Shown here: positions 1,667 through 31,553 of the stretch, piece after piece | Layout of the letters: every line of letters begins with the position of its first letter | Position numbering within the stretch: the first letter of the stretch is position 1 | Assembly (NCBI GenBank): GCA_903825465.1 | Contig: CAIKAR010000001.1 | Coordinates: 1-35,994 of the forward strand | Source of the DNA: an uncultured Hyphomicrobiales bacterium | Lineage (GTDB): Bacteria; Pseudomonadota; Alphaproteobacteria; Rhizobiales; Beijerinckiaceae | DNA: 35,994 bases | Reading direction: 5' to 3' | Made by a program: the position numbers and the translations under genes | The notes under the pieces: generated by a model | What the model saw: only the letters and a program-made list of their open reading frames with translations | Database searches by the model: none | What the model was told of the DNA's origin: nothing

Positions 1667-3955
1667 TCACCATCGCCCAAGCAGCGACAGCCTGACCGAC
1701 AATGGCTCGGCGGCGTGAAAGTGAACATCCGGCGCGGGAACCGCGGTCGGCGATGTCTGCGACAGGTAGTAATAGCCGACATCCTGCGCCCGCGTGTTCA
1801 GCGCGTTGTCGACATCGAGTTGCACCTTGACGTTCTCCGTGAGCTTGTAGCCGGCGCGCAGATTTAGAATGCTTGTCGCCGACGATCGAACGCTGTTGTC
1901 GTTGGTGAGCGGCCGGGAGCCGTAAAAGCGATATTGCAGGCCGCCGTACCACTTGTCGAGCCCGTCGATGATCTCGCCGAAATCGTCAACGGCGAGTCCG
2001 GCGCCCACGACGAGTTCGGGAGAACCATTGATATAACGCCCGACGCAGCAGGTGACGGTCTGACCGTCCTGACCCGCGACGGTGGTTCCATCATAAACGG
2101 GGTGATCGAACCGGGCGATCGAATAGGCGACGTCAACGTCGAGGATGACGCCGGGAAGAGGCGTGTAAAAATTGGCGAACTCGACGCCGGTTCTCGTCGT
2201 CGGGCCGCTCGGCTCGTCTTGCGCCGAATCGCCGGCGAACACCTGTTCCGAGTCTTCATGCAGTCGGAAAAACGCGAGGGATGTCTGCAAATGCGGAATG
2301 GCCGCGGATCGCACGCCGATCTCGTAGCCCAAGGCTCTTTCCAAAAGCGGATATTGCGCCGTCAGGAGCCCGGACGCTGGCCCCGCGGCGGTGAACGCGG
2401 CCCGCGCGGGATACGCCGACGCGCGCACGTCGTTGCTGTGCAATCCCTGTCCGGCGCTCACGTAGAATTCCGTGTCGAACCACGGGCCCAGGATGAGGCT
2501 GGCCTTCGGGCTGAGCGCCCCTTGCGAGAGCGAATTGTTGTGGAAGGGCGTTGTGTAGGGGCCGCCGTTCACAACCGTGTCGAGCGGATCATAGGCGCGG
2601 TCGTTGGCGTAGAAGAAGTCGCCGCGAAGGCCGAAAACGGTGCGCACCTTGTCGAGCCACTTTGTCTTGTTCTCGACATAGAGCGCGGCGTTGCCCTCGC
2701 CGATGGCGTCTGTGCGGTTTGTCGAAAGGTACTGCCGGTTGGCGGTGGTGTAGAGGCCGAGGTTTATCTGGTCCCAGCGCGTGGACGCGCCGATCGTGTT
2801 TTCCATGTCGAAGCCGCCGAGCTTGCCGTAGGCGGTGTAGCTGGCGTTCCCGCCTTCAACAACGCGGTCGTCGTGCTGGTGGAACTGATCGCCGTTGACC
2901 GGATCGGCCAGGAAAAAGGTGAAGTCGTTGTAGAGGTTCATGCGGCTTGCGATCGCGTAGAGGCTCACCTTGATTTGGCGGTCCTTGTCGGTGTCGATGT
3001 AGCGGCCGCTGACGCTGTAGCGTTGCATGTCGCCGCCATCGCTGGGATCCATCGTCCCGAACCGGCCGAGCTGTCCCGAGTTCACCAGCATGAGCGGTAT
3101 CTGGTTTGTCGCGGTCCATTTGCCGCTGTAGGCCATGCCGGTGAGCGTCCAGCCGCTTGTGTCCGTCCCCATGGCGTAGCGCAGCACGCCATTGAATTTG
3201 CGGAAGTTGTCCGGCGTCGTCCAGGGACCGTCGAGATGTTCGCCCTCGAAGGCCGCGATCACATTGCCGTTGGCGACGGGCCGGGACATCGCCGTCACGC
3301 CGCGAAGATATCCAAAGCTGCCGAAGGAAACCTCGGCCATGTCGTGGTCGAGCTTGTTGACATAATCCATCTGCACCGCGCCGGCCGCGGCGAAATCCCC
3401 CAGATTGGCGAAGTAGGGACCCTTCTCGTATTTCATGCCGCTCAGCAGTTCCGGGATCATGAAATTGAGATCGGCGTAGCCTTGGCCATGACCTTGCGAC
3501 GGCATGTTGACGGGCATGTCGTCGACGGAAATCGCGATGTCCGTGCCGTGGTCGAGGTTGAAGCCACGCAGATAATACTGGTTGGCCTTCCCCTCGCCGC
3601 TGTGCTGCGTGACGATCAATCCGGGCACGTTTTCCAGAAGCTCGCCGGCGCGGTAGGTCGGTCGCGAAGACAGCTGTTGTGGAAGCACAGTGCCCTGGGT
3701 CGCCGTGTCGGCCGATCCCGCCAGACCCGCGGCGGGTTTGTCAGCCGGTTTGTCGCCGTCGGCGACAACTTCGACCGTTGGCAGCTCAATTGTCTGGGTG
3801 CCGCCGGCGCGAAGCGGGCTGGTCAAGGCGACGCTAACAAGGGCCGCGGCGCCTCCGACAAGCCAGCGCGTCCGCCCGCTTGCCTCTGGATGTATTCGGG
3901 AACCCTCTTGACGCCAACGCGCGCGAATTCGACTGAACGCCACACCCTCAACCAT
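1667..3955 (-). CDS. TonB-dependent outer-membrane receptor
   Basis: This is a 762-aa TonB-gated outer-membrane transporter. A basic N-terminus and hydrophobic signal segment (about residues 33-50, VGGAAALVSVALTSPLRA) are followed by a TonB-box-like stretch (TIELPTVEVVAD). The plug domain comes next (LLENVPGLIVTQHSGEGK, YYLRGFNLDHGTDIAISVD), then a long aromatic-rich beta-barrel. The barrel ends in SVRLSLLGRW, with the terminal aromatic residue typical of outer-membrane proteins. The exbB-exbD-tonB genes downstream on the same strand are its likely energy source. The substrate cannot be read from sequence: siderophore, haem, cobalamin or metal chelate are all possible. The ATG at 3955 has only a weak ribosome binding site, and GTG at 3943 is an alternative start. 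Confidence 0.93.
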   Translation of the reverse strand: MVEGVAFSRIRARWRQEGSRIHPEASGRTRWLVGGAAALVSVALTSPLRAGGTQTIELPTVEVVADGDKPADKPAAGLAGSADTATQGTVLPQQLSSRPTYRAGELLENVPGLIVTQHSGEGKANQYYLRGFNLDHGTDIAISVDDMPVNMPSQGHGQGYADLNFMIPELLSGMKYEKGPYFANLGDFAAAGAVQMDYVNKLDHDMAEVSFGSFGYLRGVTAMSRPVANGNVIAAFEGEHLDGPWTTPDNFRKFNGVLRYAMGTDTSGWTLTGMAYSGKWTATNQIPLMLVNSGQLGRFGTMDPSDGGDMQRYSVSGRYIDTDKDRQIKVSLYAIASRMNLYNDFTFFLADPVNGDQFHQHDDRVVEGGNASYTAYGKLGGFDMENTIGASTRWDQINLGLYTTANRQYLSTNRTDAIGEGNAALYVENKTKWLDKVRTVFGLRGDFFYANDRAYDPLDTVVNGGPYTTPFHNNSLSQGALSPKASLILGPWFDTEFYVSAGQGLHSNDVRASAYPARAAFTAAGPASGLLTAQYPLLERALGYEIGVRSAAIPHLQTSLAFFRLHEDSEQVFAGDSAQDEPSGPTTRTGVEFANFYTPLPGVILDVDVAYSIARFDHPVYDGTTVAGQDGQTVTCCVGRYINGSPELVVGAGLAVDDFGEIIDGLDKWYGGLQYRFYGSRPLTNDNSVRSSATSILNLRAGYKLTENVKVQLDVDNALNTRAQDVGYYYLSQTSPTAVPAPDVHFHAAEPLSVRLSLLGRW

Positions 3956-3992
3956 GCCACGCCACCCCAGTATGATTTTTTTGATATTTTTT

Positions 3993-4021
3993 CATAAATC
4001 AGAAGGTCGTTATGAGATCAA
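3993..4021 (-). promoter_or_regulatory. Sigma-70-like promoter for the TonB-dependent receptor
   Basis: On the minus strand a TTGATC (4016-4021) and a TTTATG (3993-3998) are exactly 17 bp apart, about 38 bp upstream of the receptor ATG. They lie in a strongly AT-rich stretch (about 3965-4055) unlike the surrounding GC-rich DNA. The partial palindrome TATGA...TCATA at 3971-3996 overlaps the -10 and could bind a regulator. No canonical Fur, RirA or Irr box could be recognised. Confidence 0.45.
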
Positions 4022-4264
4022 GCCATATTTTTCATACAAATCAGTCCCCGTTTTTCGGTTGACGGCGCGCTGCGAAAGGATCACCGTCATACGGTTGGCG
4101 CCAAGCGCGTCGATATTCTCCATCCCTTGAAAGAGACATGGGCAGTAGCAACTCCGGCGACCGGATCGCGGCGATGGCCGTCCAGATGGCGTCGATTGAC
4201 ATAGCTGACGTCCGCGACCTCGGGGATCGCGTGGCAGGTTTCGCCAAGGCGTAGCCTCCGCCCG

Positions 4265-4295
4265 CTCACCTTCGGTCCAGGACCGAGGAGGTGAG
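4265..4295 (+). promoter_or_regulatory. Hairpin that sequesters the Shine-Dalgarno of a short ORF
   Basis: CTCACCT (4265-4271) pairs with AGGTGAG (4289-4295), and TCGGTCC (4272-4278) with GGACCGA (4280-4286), leaving a GG bulge. The 3' arm contains the strong ribosome binding site GAGGAGGTGAG for the ATG at 4298. Translation of that ORF should therefore depend on whether the hairpin opens. This is read directly from sequence; its effect is inferred. Confidence 0.55.
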
Positions 4296-4297
4296 CC

Positions 4298-4489
4298 ATG
4301 AACAAGCTCGTTTATTTCCGCGCGGCCTCGCGTCGCGCGCCGGTCGCTCCCGACATTTGTCGGGATACGCCGCTGACATGCGTTTGGACGCGCGATCCCG
4401 CTAGGGATCGCCTCGTTTGCCATTGGCGACCCGCCAGCTGCGGCCGCGACGCGGCGTCCGACCGCCCTCCCTCATGTCTCGCAGCCTGA
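4298..4489 (+). CDS. Short Cys/Trp/Arg-rich ORF, candidate leader peptide
   Basis: This is a 63-aa ORF with an excellent ribosome binding site (GAGGAGGTGAG, spacing 2-6 nt). It begins MNKLVYFRAASRR and contains the internal near-repeat LTCVW TRDPARDR LVCHW (residues 27-44), then a Cys- and Arg-rich tail. There is no signal peptide or membrane segment. Two perfect hairpins lie inside the coding region, and the start is inside a third. It is the first of a co-directional series: this ORF, a 39-aa ORF, the Nramp-related gene, and mgtC. I do not know a named family for it. It may be a leader peptide whose translation (Arg, Trp, Cys or Pro codons) couples to transporter expression, or a small protein of its own. 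Chance remains possible because GC-rich DNA opens many frames. Confidence 0.45.
   Translation: MNKLVYFRAASRRAPVAPDICRDTPLTCVWTRDPARDRLVCHWRPASCGRDAASDRPPSCLAA
4348..4365 (+). other. Perfect 8-bp inverted repeat inside the short ORF
   Basis: TCCCGACA (4348-4355) and TGTCGGGA (4358-4365) flank two T residues. As RNA this forms a compact hairpin inside the 63-aa ORF; as DNA it could be an operator. It belongs to the leader structure described around it. Confidence 0.5.
4392..4411 (+). other. Perfect 8-bp stem-loop inside the short ORF
   Basis: GCGATCCC (4392-4399) pairs with GGGATCGC (4404-4411) around the loop GCTA. The 5' arm can instead pair with 4223-4231, so this hairpin competes with a long-range helix that encloses the start of the short ORF. 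No U-tract follows, so it is not a standard intrinsic terminator. Confidence 0.55.
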
Positions 4490-4501
4490 AAGGAGCCTTC
4501 C

Positions 4502-4621
4502 ATGAACGACGGCCCCAGTAGGCTCGCCGGCCTCGGTAACGAGACGGCGGGCGTTCCCGAAACCCTTTCCCGATCCCCAAACACATCCCGCGTCCGCGAC
4601 AGGTGGAACTCAGGCTGCTGA
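4502..4621 (+). CDS. Second short ORF (39 aa) before the Nramp-related gene
   Basis: An ATG with a strong ribosome binding site (GAAAGGAGCC, about 5 nt upstream) opens a 39-aa frame, MNDGPSRLAGLGNETAG..., ending WNSGC. It is hydrophilic with no recognisable domain. Its TGA (4619-4621) directly abuts an in-frame TTG (4622) of the transporter frame, and the preferred transporter ATG follows 45 bp later with its own GGAAGGAG site. Three consecutive ATGs with near-ideal ribosome binding sites in about 370 bp (4298, 4502, 4667) argue for real translation in the leader. No function can be given. Confidence 0.35.
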   Translation: MNDGPSRLAGLGNETAGVPETLSRSPNTSRVRDRWNSGC

Positions 4622-4666
4622 TTGACAGCCGCAGGTTCGCCGCCGCGTGAGCGGAAGGAGCGAACC

Positions 4667-6295
4667 ATGACCTGTCACATCAAAACCGAAAAAACGCTCG
4701 GCGCTGTTCTCGATGAAGCCCATGTCGGTTCCATCAAGGGCGCGTTCGGAACCATTCATCATCACGACACCGGGCCGCGTCGCGACTGGAAGCACCGGCT
4801 TCGGACCCTGTTGGCCATCATCGGGCCAGGCCTGATCGTGATGGTGGGCGACAACGACGCCGGCGCCTTCGGCACTTACACGCAAGCCGGCCAGAACTAC
4901 GGCACCGCGCTCCTGTGGACGCTGTTGCCGCTTGTGCCGGTGCTCTACGTCAATCAGGAAATGGTGCTGCGGCTCGGCGCGGTGACCGGCGTCGGCCACG
5001 CGCGCCTGATATTCGAGCGCTTTGGCCGCTTCTGGGGGGCGTTCAGCGTCATCGACCTGTTCCTGCTCAACGCGCTGACAATCGTCACCGAATTCATCGG
5101 CATCGCCCTCGGACTCGACTACCTCGGCGTGCCAAGGGCGCTGGGCGTGGCGCTGTCGGCCGCGGCCATCATGGGCGCGGTTGGCACCGGCGATTTTCGC
5201 CGCTTCGAGCGTTTCGCGCTGGCGCTTGTCGCCGGCAGCCTGGTTCTCGCGCCGATCTTCGTGATGGTTCATCCGCCGATGGGCGAGATCGCGCGCGATT
5301 TCGTGATTCCCAGCATGCCCGACGGCAAACTCTCCGACATCATGCTGCTGATCATCGCCATCGTGGGCACAACGGTCGCGCCGTGGCAGTTGTTCTTCCA
5401 GCAGAGCTACGTCATCGACAAGCGCATCACGCCGCGTTTCATCCGGTACGAGCGGGCCGACCTGTGGTTCGGCATCGTTCTCGTCGTCGCGGGCGCCGTG
5501 GCGATGATGGCCTTCGCGGCGGCGGCCTTCGAGGGAACGGCGGGTTTCGGCGATTTCTCCGACGCGGGCGGGGTTGCGAAGGGACTTGAAGCCCATTCAG
5601 GCCATTTGACCGGCGTGCTGTTCGCCATCGCGCTGATCGACGCGAGTCTGATTGGCGCGGCGGCGGTGTCGCTCTCCACCGCCTACGCCATCGGCGACGT
5701 GTTCTCGATCCGCCATTCGCTGCATCGCAAGATCGGCGACGCGAAGGGATTCTACGCCATCTACGCCGGACTGATCGTCGTGTCGGCCGCGCTTGTGCTG
5801 ACCCCTGGGGCGCCGCTGGGCCTGCTAACCAACGCGGTTCAAACGCTCGCTGGCGTGCTGTTGCCGAGCGCGACCGTGTTTCTGCTGCTCTTGTGCAACG
5901 ATAAGGCGGTGCTGGGTCCGTGGGTCAACGCGCGCGGCATGAACCTGTTCACCGGCGCGGTCATCGCGGGGCTCGTGATCCTGTCGGTGATCCTGACAGC
6001 TTCCGTTCTGTTCCCCGATCAGACGGGCGAGACCGTGATTCTGTCGATCCTCGGCGGGGGCGCGGCGCTCGGGCTCGTGGCCGCCTTTGTTTCCGGCGCT
6101 TTCCGGCGCGGACCGGCGACAAAACGCCCGGAGGCGGCGATACGCGATGTGTGGCGCATGCCCGCGCTGTCGCAATTGCCGCCGGCCCAATTGTCCTTGT
6201 CGAGCCGTGTCTGGATGGGCGCGCTGCGGCTTTATCTCGTCGTCGCGGGCGGCATGGTGCTCTTCCGCATCATCGCCCTCGCCGTGGGCTCTTGA
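4667..6295 (+). CDS. Nramp-related divalent cation transporter (NRMT-like, probably Mg2+)
   Basis: This 542-aa multi-pass inner-membrane protein has the Nramp fold. Its metal-site residues differ from the Mn2+/Fe2+ type. Where helix 1 normally reads DPGN it has GDNDAGAFGTY (D62-Y71): the Asp is kept and the Asn replaced. Where helix 6 normally reads MPH it has VAPWQLFFQQS (A238 in place of the soft-metal-selective Met). Loss of that Met is known from Nramp-related magnesium transporters. Together with mgtC 36 bp downstream, a gene type tied to low Mg2+, this points to Mg2+ uptake (inferred). A His-containing N-terminus (HHHDTGPRRDW) precedes helix 1. The ATG at 4667 has a GGAAGGAG site; an in-frame TTG at 4622 is less likely. 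Confidence 0.88.
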   Translation: MTCHIKTEKTLGAVLDEAHVGSIKGAFGTIHHHDTGPRRDWKHRLRTLLAIIGPGLIVMVGDNDAGAFGTYTQAGQNYGTALLWTLLPLVPVLYVNQEMVLRLGAVTGVGHARLIFERFGRFWGAFSVIDLFLLNALTIVTEFIGIALGLDYLGVPRALGVALSAAAIMGAVGTGDFRRFERFALALVAGSLVLAPIFVMVHPPMGEIARDFVIPSMPDGKLSDIMLLIIAIVGTTVAPWQLFFQQSYVIDKRITPRFIRYERADLWFGIVLVVAGAVAMMAFAAAAFEGTAGFGDFSDAGGVAKGLEAHSGHLTGVLFAIALIDASLIGAAAVSLSTAYAIGDVFSIRHSLHRKIGDAKGFYAIYAGLIVVSAALVLTPGAPLGLLTNAVQTLAGVLLPSATVFLLLLCNDKAVLGPWVNARGMNLFTGAVIAGLVILSVILTASVLFPDQTGETVILSILGGGAALGLVAAFVSGAFRRGPATKRPEAAIRDVWRMPALSQLPPAQLSLSSRVWMGALRLYLVVAGGMVLFRIIALAVGS

Positions 6296-6331: not shown

Positions 6332-7039
6332 ATGATGCATGTCGACCTGAAAGCCCTCGGCGACCTGGCCCTTGGGATTGCGATCGCCTTCGTGCTCGCG
6401 ACTCTCATCGGCGCGGAACGGCAATATCGACAGCGAAGCGCTGGATTGCGAACCAACGTTCTCGTCGCTGTCGGCGCGGCGGCGTTCGTGTCGCTCGGTT
6501 CGCGCCTCGCTGGCAACGCGGGAGCGGCGCAGATCGCCGCTTATGTGGTCTCCGGCATCGGCTTTCTCGGCGCGGGCGTCATCATGAAGGATGGCGGCAA
6601 AGTCTGGGGCCTGAACACGGCGGCGACGCTGTGGTGCTCGGCCGCGATCGGAGCCTTGTCCGGCCTCGGGCTGGCTGCTGAAGCGGCGGTCGTCGCGGTC
6701 GCGGTCCTCGCCTGCAACACCCTGTTGCGGCCCCTCGTCAACGCGATCAACCGCGCGCCGTTCGACGAACGTGTGTCTGAAGCCACCTACGAGGTGCATG
6801 TCCTGACCTCGCCCGAACATGTCGGCGCGGCGCGCGATCTCGTGGTGGAAGCGCTCGAAGCTGCCAGTTATCCAATCCGGGACATCGACGTTATGGAGAG
6901 ATCCGAGGAATTGACTGAAATCGCCACGACGCTGGTCAGCACGGCCGTCGAACCCTCCGAGCTCGACGCGGTCGCCGCGAAGCTCGAAAAATCACCGATG
7001 ATCTCGCACGCGAGCTGGTCGTCGAGCGCCGATGAATGA
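6332..7039 (+). CDS. mgtC: MgtC/SapB family membrane protein
   Basis: This is a 235-aa inner-membrane protein of the MgtC/SapB family. Family signatures are LIGAERQYRQRSAGLRTNVL (about residues 25-44), GIGFLGAGVI (about 76-85) and VWGLNTAATLWCSAAIG (about 91-107). The last of four or five helices is followed by a cytoplasmic domain of about 90 residues resembling the ACT-like MgtC C-terminus (YEVHVLTSPEHVGAARDLVV). In other bacteria MgtC proteins act under Mg2+ limitation and acid stress and can modulate ATP synthase; that role is not shown here. The gene follows the Nramp-related transporter by 36 bp, so both probably share the long leader upstream. Confidence 0.92.
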   Translation: MMHVDLKALGDLALGIAIAFVLATLIGAERQYRQRSAGLRTNVLVAVGAAAFVSLGSRLAGNAGAAQIAAYVVSGIGFLGAGVIMKDGGKVWGLNTAATLWCSAAIGALSGLGLAAEAAVVAVAVLACNTLLRPLVNAINRAPFDERVSEATYEVHVLTSPEHVGAARDLVVEALEAASYPIRDIDVMERSEELTEIATTLVSTAVEPSELDAVAAKLEKSPMISHASWSSSADE

Positions 7040-29840: not shown

Positions 29841-31553
29841 ATGCCCGCAACGCTCTCCCGCGCCGCCTACGCGGACATGTTTGGCCCGACGACCGGCGAC
29901 CGTGTGCGCCTCGCCGACACGGAGCTCTTCATCGAGATCGAGCGCGATTTCACCACCTATGGCGAAGAGGTGAAGTTCGGCGGCGGCAAGGTCATCCGCG
30001 ACGGCATGGGGCAGTCGCAGGTGTCGCGCGCGCTTGGCGCGATGGACACGGTGATCACCAACGTCGTCGTGCTCGACCACTGGGGCGTCGTGAAAGCGGA
30101 TGTGGGCCTGCGCGACGGGCGCGTCGCGGCCATCGGCAAGGCCGGCAATCCGGAAATTCAAAACGGCGTGGCGATCGTCATCGGCCCGGGAACGGAAATC
30201 ATCGCGGGCGAGGGCAAAATCCTCACCGCCGGCGGCTTCGACACGCATATCCATTTCATCTGCCCTCAACAGATCGAGGCGGCGCTGATGTCCGGCGTCA
30301 CATCGATGCTGGGTGGCGGCACCGGCCCCGCGACAGGGACGTTCGCGACGACATGCACGCCGGGCCCCTGGCACATCGCGCGCATGATAGAGGCGGCGGA
30401 CGCGTTTCCGATGAACCTCGGTTTCGCGGGCAAGGGAAACGCGGCGACGCCGGCGGGGCTTGTCGAACAGGTCGAGGCGGGCGCCTGCGCGCTCAAGCTG
30501 CACGAGGACTGGGGCACGACGCCCGCCGCCATCGACTGCTGCCTTTCGGTCGCCGACGACCACGATGTTCAGGTGATGCTGCATTCCGACACGTTGAACG
30601 AATCCGGGTTTGTCCAGGACACGGTGAAGGCGTTCAAGGGCCGCACCATTCACGCCTTCCACACGGAGGGCGCGGGCGGCGGCCACGCCCCCGACATTAT
30701 GTCGATCGCGGGCTTGCCGAACGTGCTGCCGTCGTCGACCAATCCGACGCGGCCGTTCACGCGCAACACGCTCGACGAGCATCTCGACATGCTGATGGTG
30801 TGCCACCATCTCGACGGCTCGATCCCCGAGGATCTCGCCTTCGCCGAAAGCCGCATCCGCAAGGAGACCATCGCGGCCGAGGACATTCTGCACGACCTGG
30901 GCGCGCTTTCGATGATGAGCTCGGACTCGCAGGCGATGGGCCGCGTCGGAGAGGTGATCATCCGCACGTGGCAGACAGCGGACAAGATGAAGCGCCAGCG
31001 CGGCGCGCTGCCCGGGGACACGGGCGGCAACGACAATTTCCGCGTCAAACGCTATGTGGCGAAGTACACGATCAATCCAGCCATCGCGCACGGCGTTTCG
31101 AAACACATCGGCTCCATCGAGCCCGGCAAGCTCGCCGACCTCGTGTTGTGGACGCCGGCCTTCTTCGGCGTGAAGCCCGATCTCGTCATCAAAGGCGGCA
31201 TGATCGCCGCCGCGCCGATGGGCGATCCCAACGCGTCGATCCCGACGCCCCAACCCGCGCACTACCGGCCGATGTTCGGCGCCTTTGGCCGCGCCGTCGC
31301 GGCGACGTCGCTGACATTCGTGTCGCGAACCTCGCTCGACAGGGGAATCGCCGCGGCGCTGCGCGTGTCGAAGCCGCTGGTGGCCGTGGAAAACACGCGC
31401 GGCGGCATCGGCAAGAAAAGCATGGTCCACAATTCCGCGACGCCAAAGATCGACATCGACCCGGAAACCTACGCCGTCAAGGCCGATGGCGTGTTGCTGA
31501 CGTGCCAACCGGCCGATGTTTTGCCGATGGCGCAGCGTTATTTCCTTTTCTGA
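29841..31553 (+). CDS. ureC: Urease alpha subunit UreC
   Basis: This is the catalytic subunit, hydrolysing urea to ammonia and carbamate at a dinickel centre. The 570-aa protein has all key residues: H136 and H138 ([10 protein letters not shown]), the carbamylated K219 ([12 protein letters not shown]), H248 ([11 protein letters not shown]), H274 ([15 protein letters not shown]), the flap Cys321-His322-His323 ([13 protein letters not shown]), and D362 ([12 protein letters not shown]). Length is standard. Its TGA overlaps the ureE start (TGATG). A fully functional enzyme is expected. Confidence 0.98.

Follow-up and report, generated by a model that had tools for sequence, protein, structure and literature searches.

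A leader RNA upstream of Nramp-related and mgtC genes: a candidate gene switch, probably linked to magnesium and not described before

The leader at nucleotides 4210–4300 of the window, by which we mean the whole 35,994-nucleotide stretch of DNA that was analyzed, has the appearance of a gene switch that has not been described before and that is probably linked to magnesium. On balance we judge it probable that this region is a bistable translational switch in the leader of an NRMT-mgtC mRNA, most likely one that follows Mg2+ status. Mg2+ status is the best-supported signal because the genes for NRMT, MgtE, MgtA and MgtC have related leaders. In our model, an anti-Shine-Dalgarno (anti-SD) sequence would be held by an upstream strand in state A (helices P1, P2 and P3), leaving the start of a small ORF, sORF1, open, and would be released onto the sORF1 SD region in state B, closing that start. 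Low Mg2+ would lead to the open state and to translation of sORF1. Ribosomes on sORF1 would then deny Rho access to the C-rich stretch that follows it, assist in opening a second hairpin over the NRMT start, or both, and the uptake genes would be expressed. High Mg2+ would lead to the closed state. We infer the signal, its direction and the coupling of sORF1 to the transporter by analogy with the translational M-box/uORF of Mycobacterium. The elements of the leader and operon are as follows.

4210–4213 (GTCC) and 4216–4219 (GACC), + strand: 5′ strand of P1 in the open state A, predicted by folding the window leader with its SD unpaired; homologs show covariation in helix 1
4222–4229, + strand: strand predicted to hold the anti-SD in state A (GGGGA..CG), from a constrained fold and homolog sequences; it overlaps 4223–4231, a segment highlighted by the first-pass annotation
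4231–4261, + strand: P2/P3 stem-loop of state A, from folds; helices 2–4 in alignment A7 and helices 2–3 in alignment A8
4264–4270, + strand: anti-SD, GCTCACC, the exact complement of the SD region; its helix with the SD covaries
4274–4283, + strand: 3′ strand of P1 in the open state A, from the SD-unpaired fold
4287–4296, + strand: sORF1 SD region (GGAGG at 4287–4291), in which GGTGAGC at 4290–4296 pairs with the anti-SD in the closed state B
4298–4489, + strand: sORF1, 63 amino acids plus stop, with its own SD; C28..W43 motif at 4379–4426
4392–4411, + strand: 8-bp hairpin of the first-pass annotation, inside the sORF1 coding sequence and not found in five homologs
4502–4621, + strand: sORF2 (MNDGPSR.., 39 amino acids plus stop), which opens with the conserved block TGAACGACGGCCCYAG
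4634–4640 (GGTTCGC) with 4660–4666 (GCGAACC), + strand: possible second gate around the SD of the Nramp-related gene, a 7-bp helix reached by 5% of shuffles
4667–6295, + strand: Nramp-related gene, NRMT-like (Mg2+ transporter type)
6332–7039, + strand: MgtC family gene (PF02308, 117 bits; PF21770, 39.6 bits; both above cut-off)

The alternative pairing of the anti-SD is the central feature of the model. GCTCACC at 4264–4270 and GGTGAGC at 4290–4296 were the sole match of that pattern in the window, and no match was obtained in 100 shuffles. RNA spanning 4215–4430 folded better than its shuffles (z −3.87; 0 of 200 as good). The anti-SD can pair either with the SD region at 4290–4296, giving the closed state, or with approximately 4222–4229 within a long P1-P2-P3 stem, giving the open state. 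In related leaders, state A leaves the SD free and consists of a closing P1, a P2 that is typically GTGAG:CTCAC and an apical P3 hairpin, while in state B the anti-SD pairs with the SD. Of 67 leaders, 39 carry GTGAG, which repeats a portion of the SD region, in their upstream part. The window leader is atypical in that its upstream part has no GTGAG, the same job being done by 4222–4229, and its closed state was predicted to lie 10.6 kcal/mol below its open state.

The first-pass annotation had described a hairpin that buries a ribosome binding site. That hairpin is exact at 4264–4270/4290–4296 and is conserved, but the buried site belongs to sORF1 rather than to the transporter gene. Its second proposal, mutually exclusive helices, was borne out for the leader as such, but the conserved choice is that of the anti-SD between the SD at 4290–4296 and the 5′ strand at about 4222–4229. 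The helices originally named were different. Segment 4223–4231 (GGGATCGCG) is indeed the exact reverse complement of 4391–4399, and the perfect 8-bp hairpin also exists, but with 4392–4399 as its 5′ arm (pairing with 4404–4411 around a loop at 4400–4403), one base from where it had been placed. In 1000 dinucleotide shuffles of 4200–4440, a 9-bp long-range complement occurred in 14.3% and an 8-bp hairpin in 4.2%, and an 8-bp hairpin whose 5′ arm was also complementary to an upstream segment occurred in 0.1%; the pairings tested in this way had been chosen after the fact. In a comparison that covered perfect helices, the longest leader-to-sORF complement in homologs L027, L028, L044, L032 and L018 was 7 nt, and none of the five had a perfect 8-bp hairpin in the sORF. 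Thus, the long-range helix and the 4392–4411 hairpin look private to this genome, and, as neither was found in these five homologs, the pair was rejected as the conserved switch. An attenuator in which 4223–4231/4391–4399 competes with 4392–4399/4404–4411 might still work in this one genome, given the exact complementarity and the rarity of the triple arrangement among shuffles, but the failure to find it in any of the five homologs and its position within the sORF1 coding sequence make this highly improbable.

The leader was modeled in its open state with three successive covariance models, R1 from seven sequences, R2 from 14 sequences and R3 from 30 rows. Leaders from the searches provided alignments in which the pairs of each state could be counted against versions slid out of register. 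In alignment A7, 81.5% of the cells of state A were paired and 18 of 22 pairs had two-sided changes, the slid versions reaching at most 47.6%. Corresponding values for alignment A8, which comprises 44 rows from 36 loci, nearly all outside the R3 seeds, were 80.2%, 20 of 22 and 48.0%; pair counts in alignment A6 were also far above those of the slid controls. A7 contains second copies at the NRMT start from L096 and L017, and A8 contains such copies from L138, L139, L141, L143, L145 and L148 as well as L132, the same locus as seed L066. For the SD helix of state B, 89.2% of cells were paired, against a maximum of 57.4% when slid, and three of seven pairs changed on both sides. Support for state B is weaker than for state A: the SD strand would be conserved for translation in any case, and two of five measures were weak against shuffles (two-sided pairs, 22 of 500; further types, 173 of 500). 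Shuffle counts overstate the covariation because the alignments were fitted to the model and the species are related. With these limits, both the state A and the state B structures are supported by covariation; a lack of covariation in homologous leaders would have refuted the first-pass proposal, and homologous leaders do covary. A local hairpin, H1 (CGCGG/CCGCG), was rejected as a companion of the closed state, as 63.4% of its cells were paired, no better than shuffles on A7, a test that leans against H1 because A7 was fitted to P1, which shares a strand with H1.

As in a riboswitch, the anti-SD is common to two exclusive helices, one of which covers the SD, as judged from sequence and covariation. 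No invariant unpaired ligand pocket was seen in the leaders. The predicted closed-minus-open energy averaged −2.0 kcal/mol with a standard deviation of 7.6, and the closed state was lower in 39 of 63 leaders; this set omits three chance hits and L110 (fewer than six anti-SD pairs) from the 67, and some of its values are rough because the best complement there is not the CTCAC element. Such a widely varying balance, together with the apparent lack of a pocket, would fit a fixed structure or an RNA thermometer that senses no ligand and merely tunes initiation at sORF1. We consider this quite unlikely, as a mere hairpin would not need the two exclusive helices that covariation supports.

The assertion that the leader matches no known class held up against Rfam. 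A search of Rfam 15 (4227 families) with the leader returned nothing beyond two weak matches to unrelated families (E 3.2 and 6.2), and the two Rfam matches in nine related loci were both away from the leader. The M-box (Magnesium riboswitch, RF00380) matched neither the window nor the leader, and it was found in 0 of 99 genomes of the same family under Infernal with stricter filters, settings at which a control was detected in 2 of 14. No published account of the leader was found in searches of one open-access library or in Rfam. Elsewhere, L132:1834-1980 (+ strand) had a sub-threshold match to the Brucella sRNA CI27 (37.5 versus 59.8 bits) that lies upstream of the leader, on the opposite strand, and the window carries a 5_ureB_sRNA match (108.9 bits) at 29996–30282 on the − strand.

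To follow the distribution of the leader, R1 was run over 91 sources and gave 26 matches: its seven seeds, 16 that ended on an ATG behind a GGAGG..GAGC signal and three at transporter starts. The window was one of the 16 non-seed matches (E 0.015). Two others of the 16 (L017 and L047) begin an ORF that has no motif of the kind described below, L047 having a motif peptide in another frame. The three matches at transporter starts (the second of L018, L019 and L030) lay at the NRMT start with weak scores and were not counted as leaders; later searches gave similar ones. No R1 match was obtained in the loci from beta- or gammaproteobacteria or actinobacteria among these sources. R2 found ten non-seed loci at E < 0.01 (L029, L086, L003, L072, L004, L047, L057, the window, L027 and L020). 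Genomes were then taken as even samples and scored with stricter filters. R2 matched 8 of 397 genomes of the order, which we take to be Hyphomicrobiales (E up to 0.02). R3 matched 13 of 149 genomes in the family to which G449 belongs (E up to 0.003), 34 of 199 of the window's family (E up to 0.005), which includes relatives of Rhodoblastus and Methylocapsa according to loci shared with such records, and, across the class, 2 of 385 (E up to 0.002), including the window itself. Cultured bacteria that carry the leader include Rhodoblastus acidophilus (L031/L032) and Bradyrhizobium sp. BTAi1 (L029/L069). A rigid DNA pattern of the leader was abandoned after it gave a single match over 397 genomes and missed the window itself.

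These gene-blind searches of sampled genomes of the window's class gave 59 distinct places where a leader ends on a start codon. The 59 include six matches taken as chance, as neither gene nor motif supports them (G567, G671, G097, G158, G274 and G669), and also two that may be chance, G613 and G101, the latter on a contig that ends 365 bases after the start. Conversely, thirteen NRMT loci given to R2 had no leader match at an upstream start (L015, L016, L021, L033, L036, L037, L055, L056, L060, L062, L070, L077 and L088; L022 ends too close to the gene and was left out), so an NRMT gene does not need the leader. At six loci a second, weaker match lay at the NRMT start (L141, L145 and L148, + strand, near 1934–2026; L138 and L139, − strand, 1089–1176; L143, + strand, 1970–2047), as if the switch occurred twice in tandem.

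Genes downstream of the 59 places were called with 12 reference proteins from the window and the leader matches, on the same strand and within 3.2 kb, or less where the sequence was shorter, and representatives were checked by Pfam/NCBIfam. The first recognized gene encoded NRMT in 29 places, an OprB porin in eight, MgtE in four, an ABC permease in four, MgtC in two, and MgtA and an RND adaptor in one each; no gene was recognized in ten. The NRMT count is partly inherited because all R2 seeds were fetched through NRMT; the MgtE, MgtC and MgtA cases are not, and the first MgtE cases (G233 and G282) were found by R2 itself. In G282 no sORF separates the leader from mgtE, which it abuts, and in G624 another ORF lies between the leader and the recognized gene. 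The MgtA gene was called from a frame of half length, truncated where the locus ends; NCBIfam Mg-ATPase models scored 494 and 437 bits, below their full-length cut-offs, versus 192 for the next type. G508 (L165, G508:C186:2000-10500) carries three leaders in tandem within 3.6 kb. The genes behind them encode an HMA_2-domain protein, NRMT and an OprB porin, the last with an MgtC-like gene after it; at one of the 29 NRMT places (G508, 3355), an HMA_2-domain ORF comes ahead of the NRMT gene. An ABC permease family lies under the leader at L172, L182, L186 and L187 and behind a leader-porin unit at L189; in several of these loci the next ORF resembles an ABC ATPase. This permease family is a candidate Mg2+ importer. 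At L185 (G586), a leader and an sORF1 motif peptide precede an RND-type adaptor and an AcrB-family pump.

The porin, ABC and RND cases (8, 4 and 1 of the 59) are not known Mg2+ genes. They raise the alternative that the switch senses something else, such as another divalent ion, pH, a polyanion or envelope stress, and that the Mg2+ genes are part of a wider transport regulon; the G508 cluster, with its HMA_2-domain protein and porin beside NRMT, would also suit such a regulon. We regard this as unlikely, since the leader is common to four unrelated Mg2+-linked families (NRMT, MgtE, MgtA and MgtC), and retain Mg2+ status as the probable signal.

The gene context of the window leader, an Nramp-related gene followed by mgtC, had been recognized in the first-pass annotation, and we agree that Mg2+ is the natural hypothesis. 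The Nramp-related protein scored 176 bits against the Mg2+ transporter EleNRMT (7qia) and 77 bits against the next Nramp structure, placing it closer to NRMT than to the Mn/Fe Nramps. Compared with the NRMT binding-site motif DxxG-TxxA/T, as given in PMC8806188, its helix 6 has TTVA (TxxA) and its helix 1 has NDAGA, with DxxA instead of DxxG. The general Nramp_1 model of NCBIfam was narrowly above its cut-off (53 versus 50 bits) and the MntH subfamily below (110 versus 430). Mg2+ is the likely substrate of this NRMT-like protein. The MgtC family protein was below the cut-off of the NCBIfam MgtC equivalog (161 versus 255 bits). The draft genome to which the window belongs has one leader, one sORF1 and no MgtE domain. 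No sigma-70-like promoter was found in 3900–4700 of the window, and a TonB-dependent receptor gene (Pfam; 1667–3955, − strand) reads away from the leader.

In relatives, sORF1 lies approximately 0.34 to 1.3 kb before the Nramp-type gene and has GGAGGTGAGCNATG or a near variant ahead of it. In four groups of close relatives dN/dS was 0.37, 0.48, 0.50 and 0.57, and the window compared with its nearest homolog gave 0.54. Translation of sORF1 is therefore probable, although constraint from RNA structure might lower the rate of change as well. Its proteins differ greatly outside a C-x-W..D..GRL-x-C-x-W core; W30, L39 and W43 were invariant in 17 aligned sequences and the Cys residues were not. A W-x(9-14)-W motif was present in the leader-started ORF at 41 of the 59 places and absent at 18; expressed per small ORF it was 41 of 54, versus a mean of 7.4 and a maximum of 15 after residue shuffling. 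The W-W distance was 13 in 32 of 41, with C two residues before the first W in 31 and before the second in 32. sORF1 matched no Pfam family. A single-sequence protein search found only sORF1 itself, and an early search gave ten matches, of which one was the window and only L003, L004 and perhaps L002 were sORF1-like. A profile search returned 616 database proteins at E up to 1; the best 120 of these included many hypothetical proteins of Bradyrhizobium or from metagenomes and none with a Pfam domain. L150 (G720) and L153 and L160 (G707) have sORF1 ends that are alike, and the W..GRL..W core is absent in G720; the two genomes provide a natural test of the need for that core.

Conservation of the peptide suggests another alternative, in which nascent sORF1 is a CruR-like sensor, metal or ribosome state altering translation of C-x-W..GRL-x-C-x-W while the RNA switch sets the rate of ribosome entry. 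Motif frequency, regular W and C spacing and dN/dS below 1 would be expected of such a sensor, and sORF1-like peptides occur without a leader model match at L021 and L036. We nevertheless find a peptide sensor improbable: 18 of 59 matches lack the motif, including G720 but not its relative G707, which bears the same genus label, the G282 leader stands directly on mgtE and the Cys residues vary.

How sORF1 would be coupled to the transporter may depend on the region behind it. C exceeded G in 78-nt windows from 4410 to 4637 (for example, 35:22). The block TGAACGACGGCCCYAG between sORF1 and NRMT forms the start of a further small frame in 16 loci (13 when each of three same-locus pairs is counted once) and was not found in Bradyrhizobium loci with up to two mismatches. 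The SD at the NRMT start is often pairable with an upstream strand whose letters vary by lineage (GCGAACC, AGGCGAGCC, CCAGGAG and GGAGGC). The longest helix there averaged 6.1 bp versus 4.4 bp in shuffled sequences (n = 26). Only nine of the 26 attained 7 bp, and for only six was the length equaled in no more than 5% of shuffles of the same sequence.

Among the described systems compared, the one whose mode of action comes nearest is the translational M-box/uORF of the M. tuberculosis pe20 operon, in which the same anti-SD logic is carried by another RNA (PMC12810186). There too, an RNA upstream of a Mg2+-linked operon masks the SD of a conserved small ORF with an anti-SD that an upstream anti-anti-SD can remove, and the role of the uORF is likewise unclear; the window differs in having no M-box match and a different small protein. 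Rho termination and reporter tests are reported for pe20. M-boxes before NrmT genes, described mostly from Clostridia and Deltaproteobacteria, are likewise Mg2+-linked RNAs before Nramp-related Mg2+ transporters, but they are another RNA, and most M-boxes act via an intrinsic terminator (PMC4072509). The Salmonella mgtCBR leader (mgtM/mgtP; PMC3641672) and intergenic mgtQ (PMC8092293) are alike in placing small ORFs ahead of mgtC or a gene for a Mg2+ transporter, in forming alternative stem-loops and in hiding a ribosome binding site; by their descriptions they are set apart by proline codons or acidic residues, in contrast to the W..GRL..W peptide found here. The mgtE motif of Thioalkalivibrio has likewise been put forward as a possible riboswitch, and its model takes in both the SD and the AUG of a gene called mgtE; compared by description, it is reported only from its genus and lies on the gene's own AUG (PMC11109978). 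The copper uORF CruR (DUF2946) is similar in that a small ORF heads metal-homeostasis operons, but it has CXXC and C-terminal RAPP motifs, and its mRNA did not itself sense copper in vitro (PMC9426467). sORF1 (P0001) has neither a Pfam family nor a CXXC, and membership in CruR/DUF2946 was not found.

Few types of RNA are known to control Mg2+ genes. The covarying leader described here is absent from Rfam and precedes four unrelated Mg2+-linked gene families, in a bacterial family in which 99 sampled genomes gave no M-box match. Tentatively, it may be a new class of Mg2+-sensing RNA that takes the place of the M-box in Hyphomicrobiales, controlling a conserved small W-GRL-W protein and thereby whole Mg2+ uptake clusters (NRMT, MgtE, MgtA, MgtC, the porin and an unassigned ABC importer). 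If so, the ABC importer would be a new route of Mg2+ uptake, and a proven Mg2+-binding fold would make the leader a new riboswitch class. The finding draws attention to a conserved small protein that lacks annotation, suggests that a porin and an ABC transporter may take part in Mg2+ uptake, and makes the way in which these bacteria follow Mg2+ directly testable.
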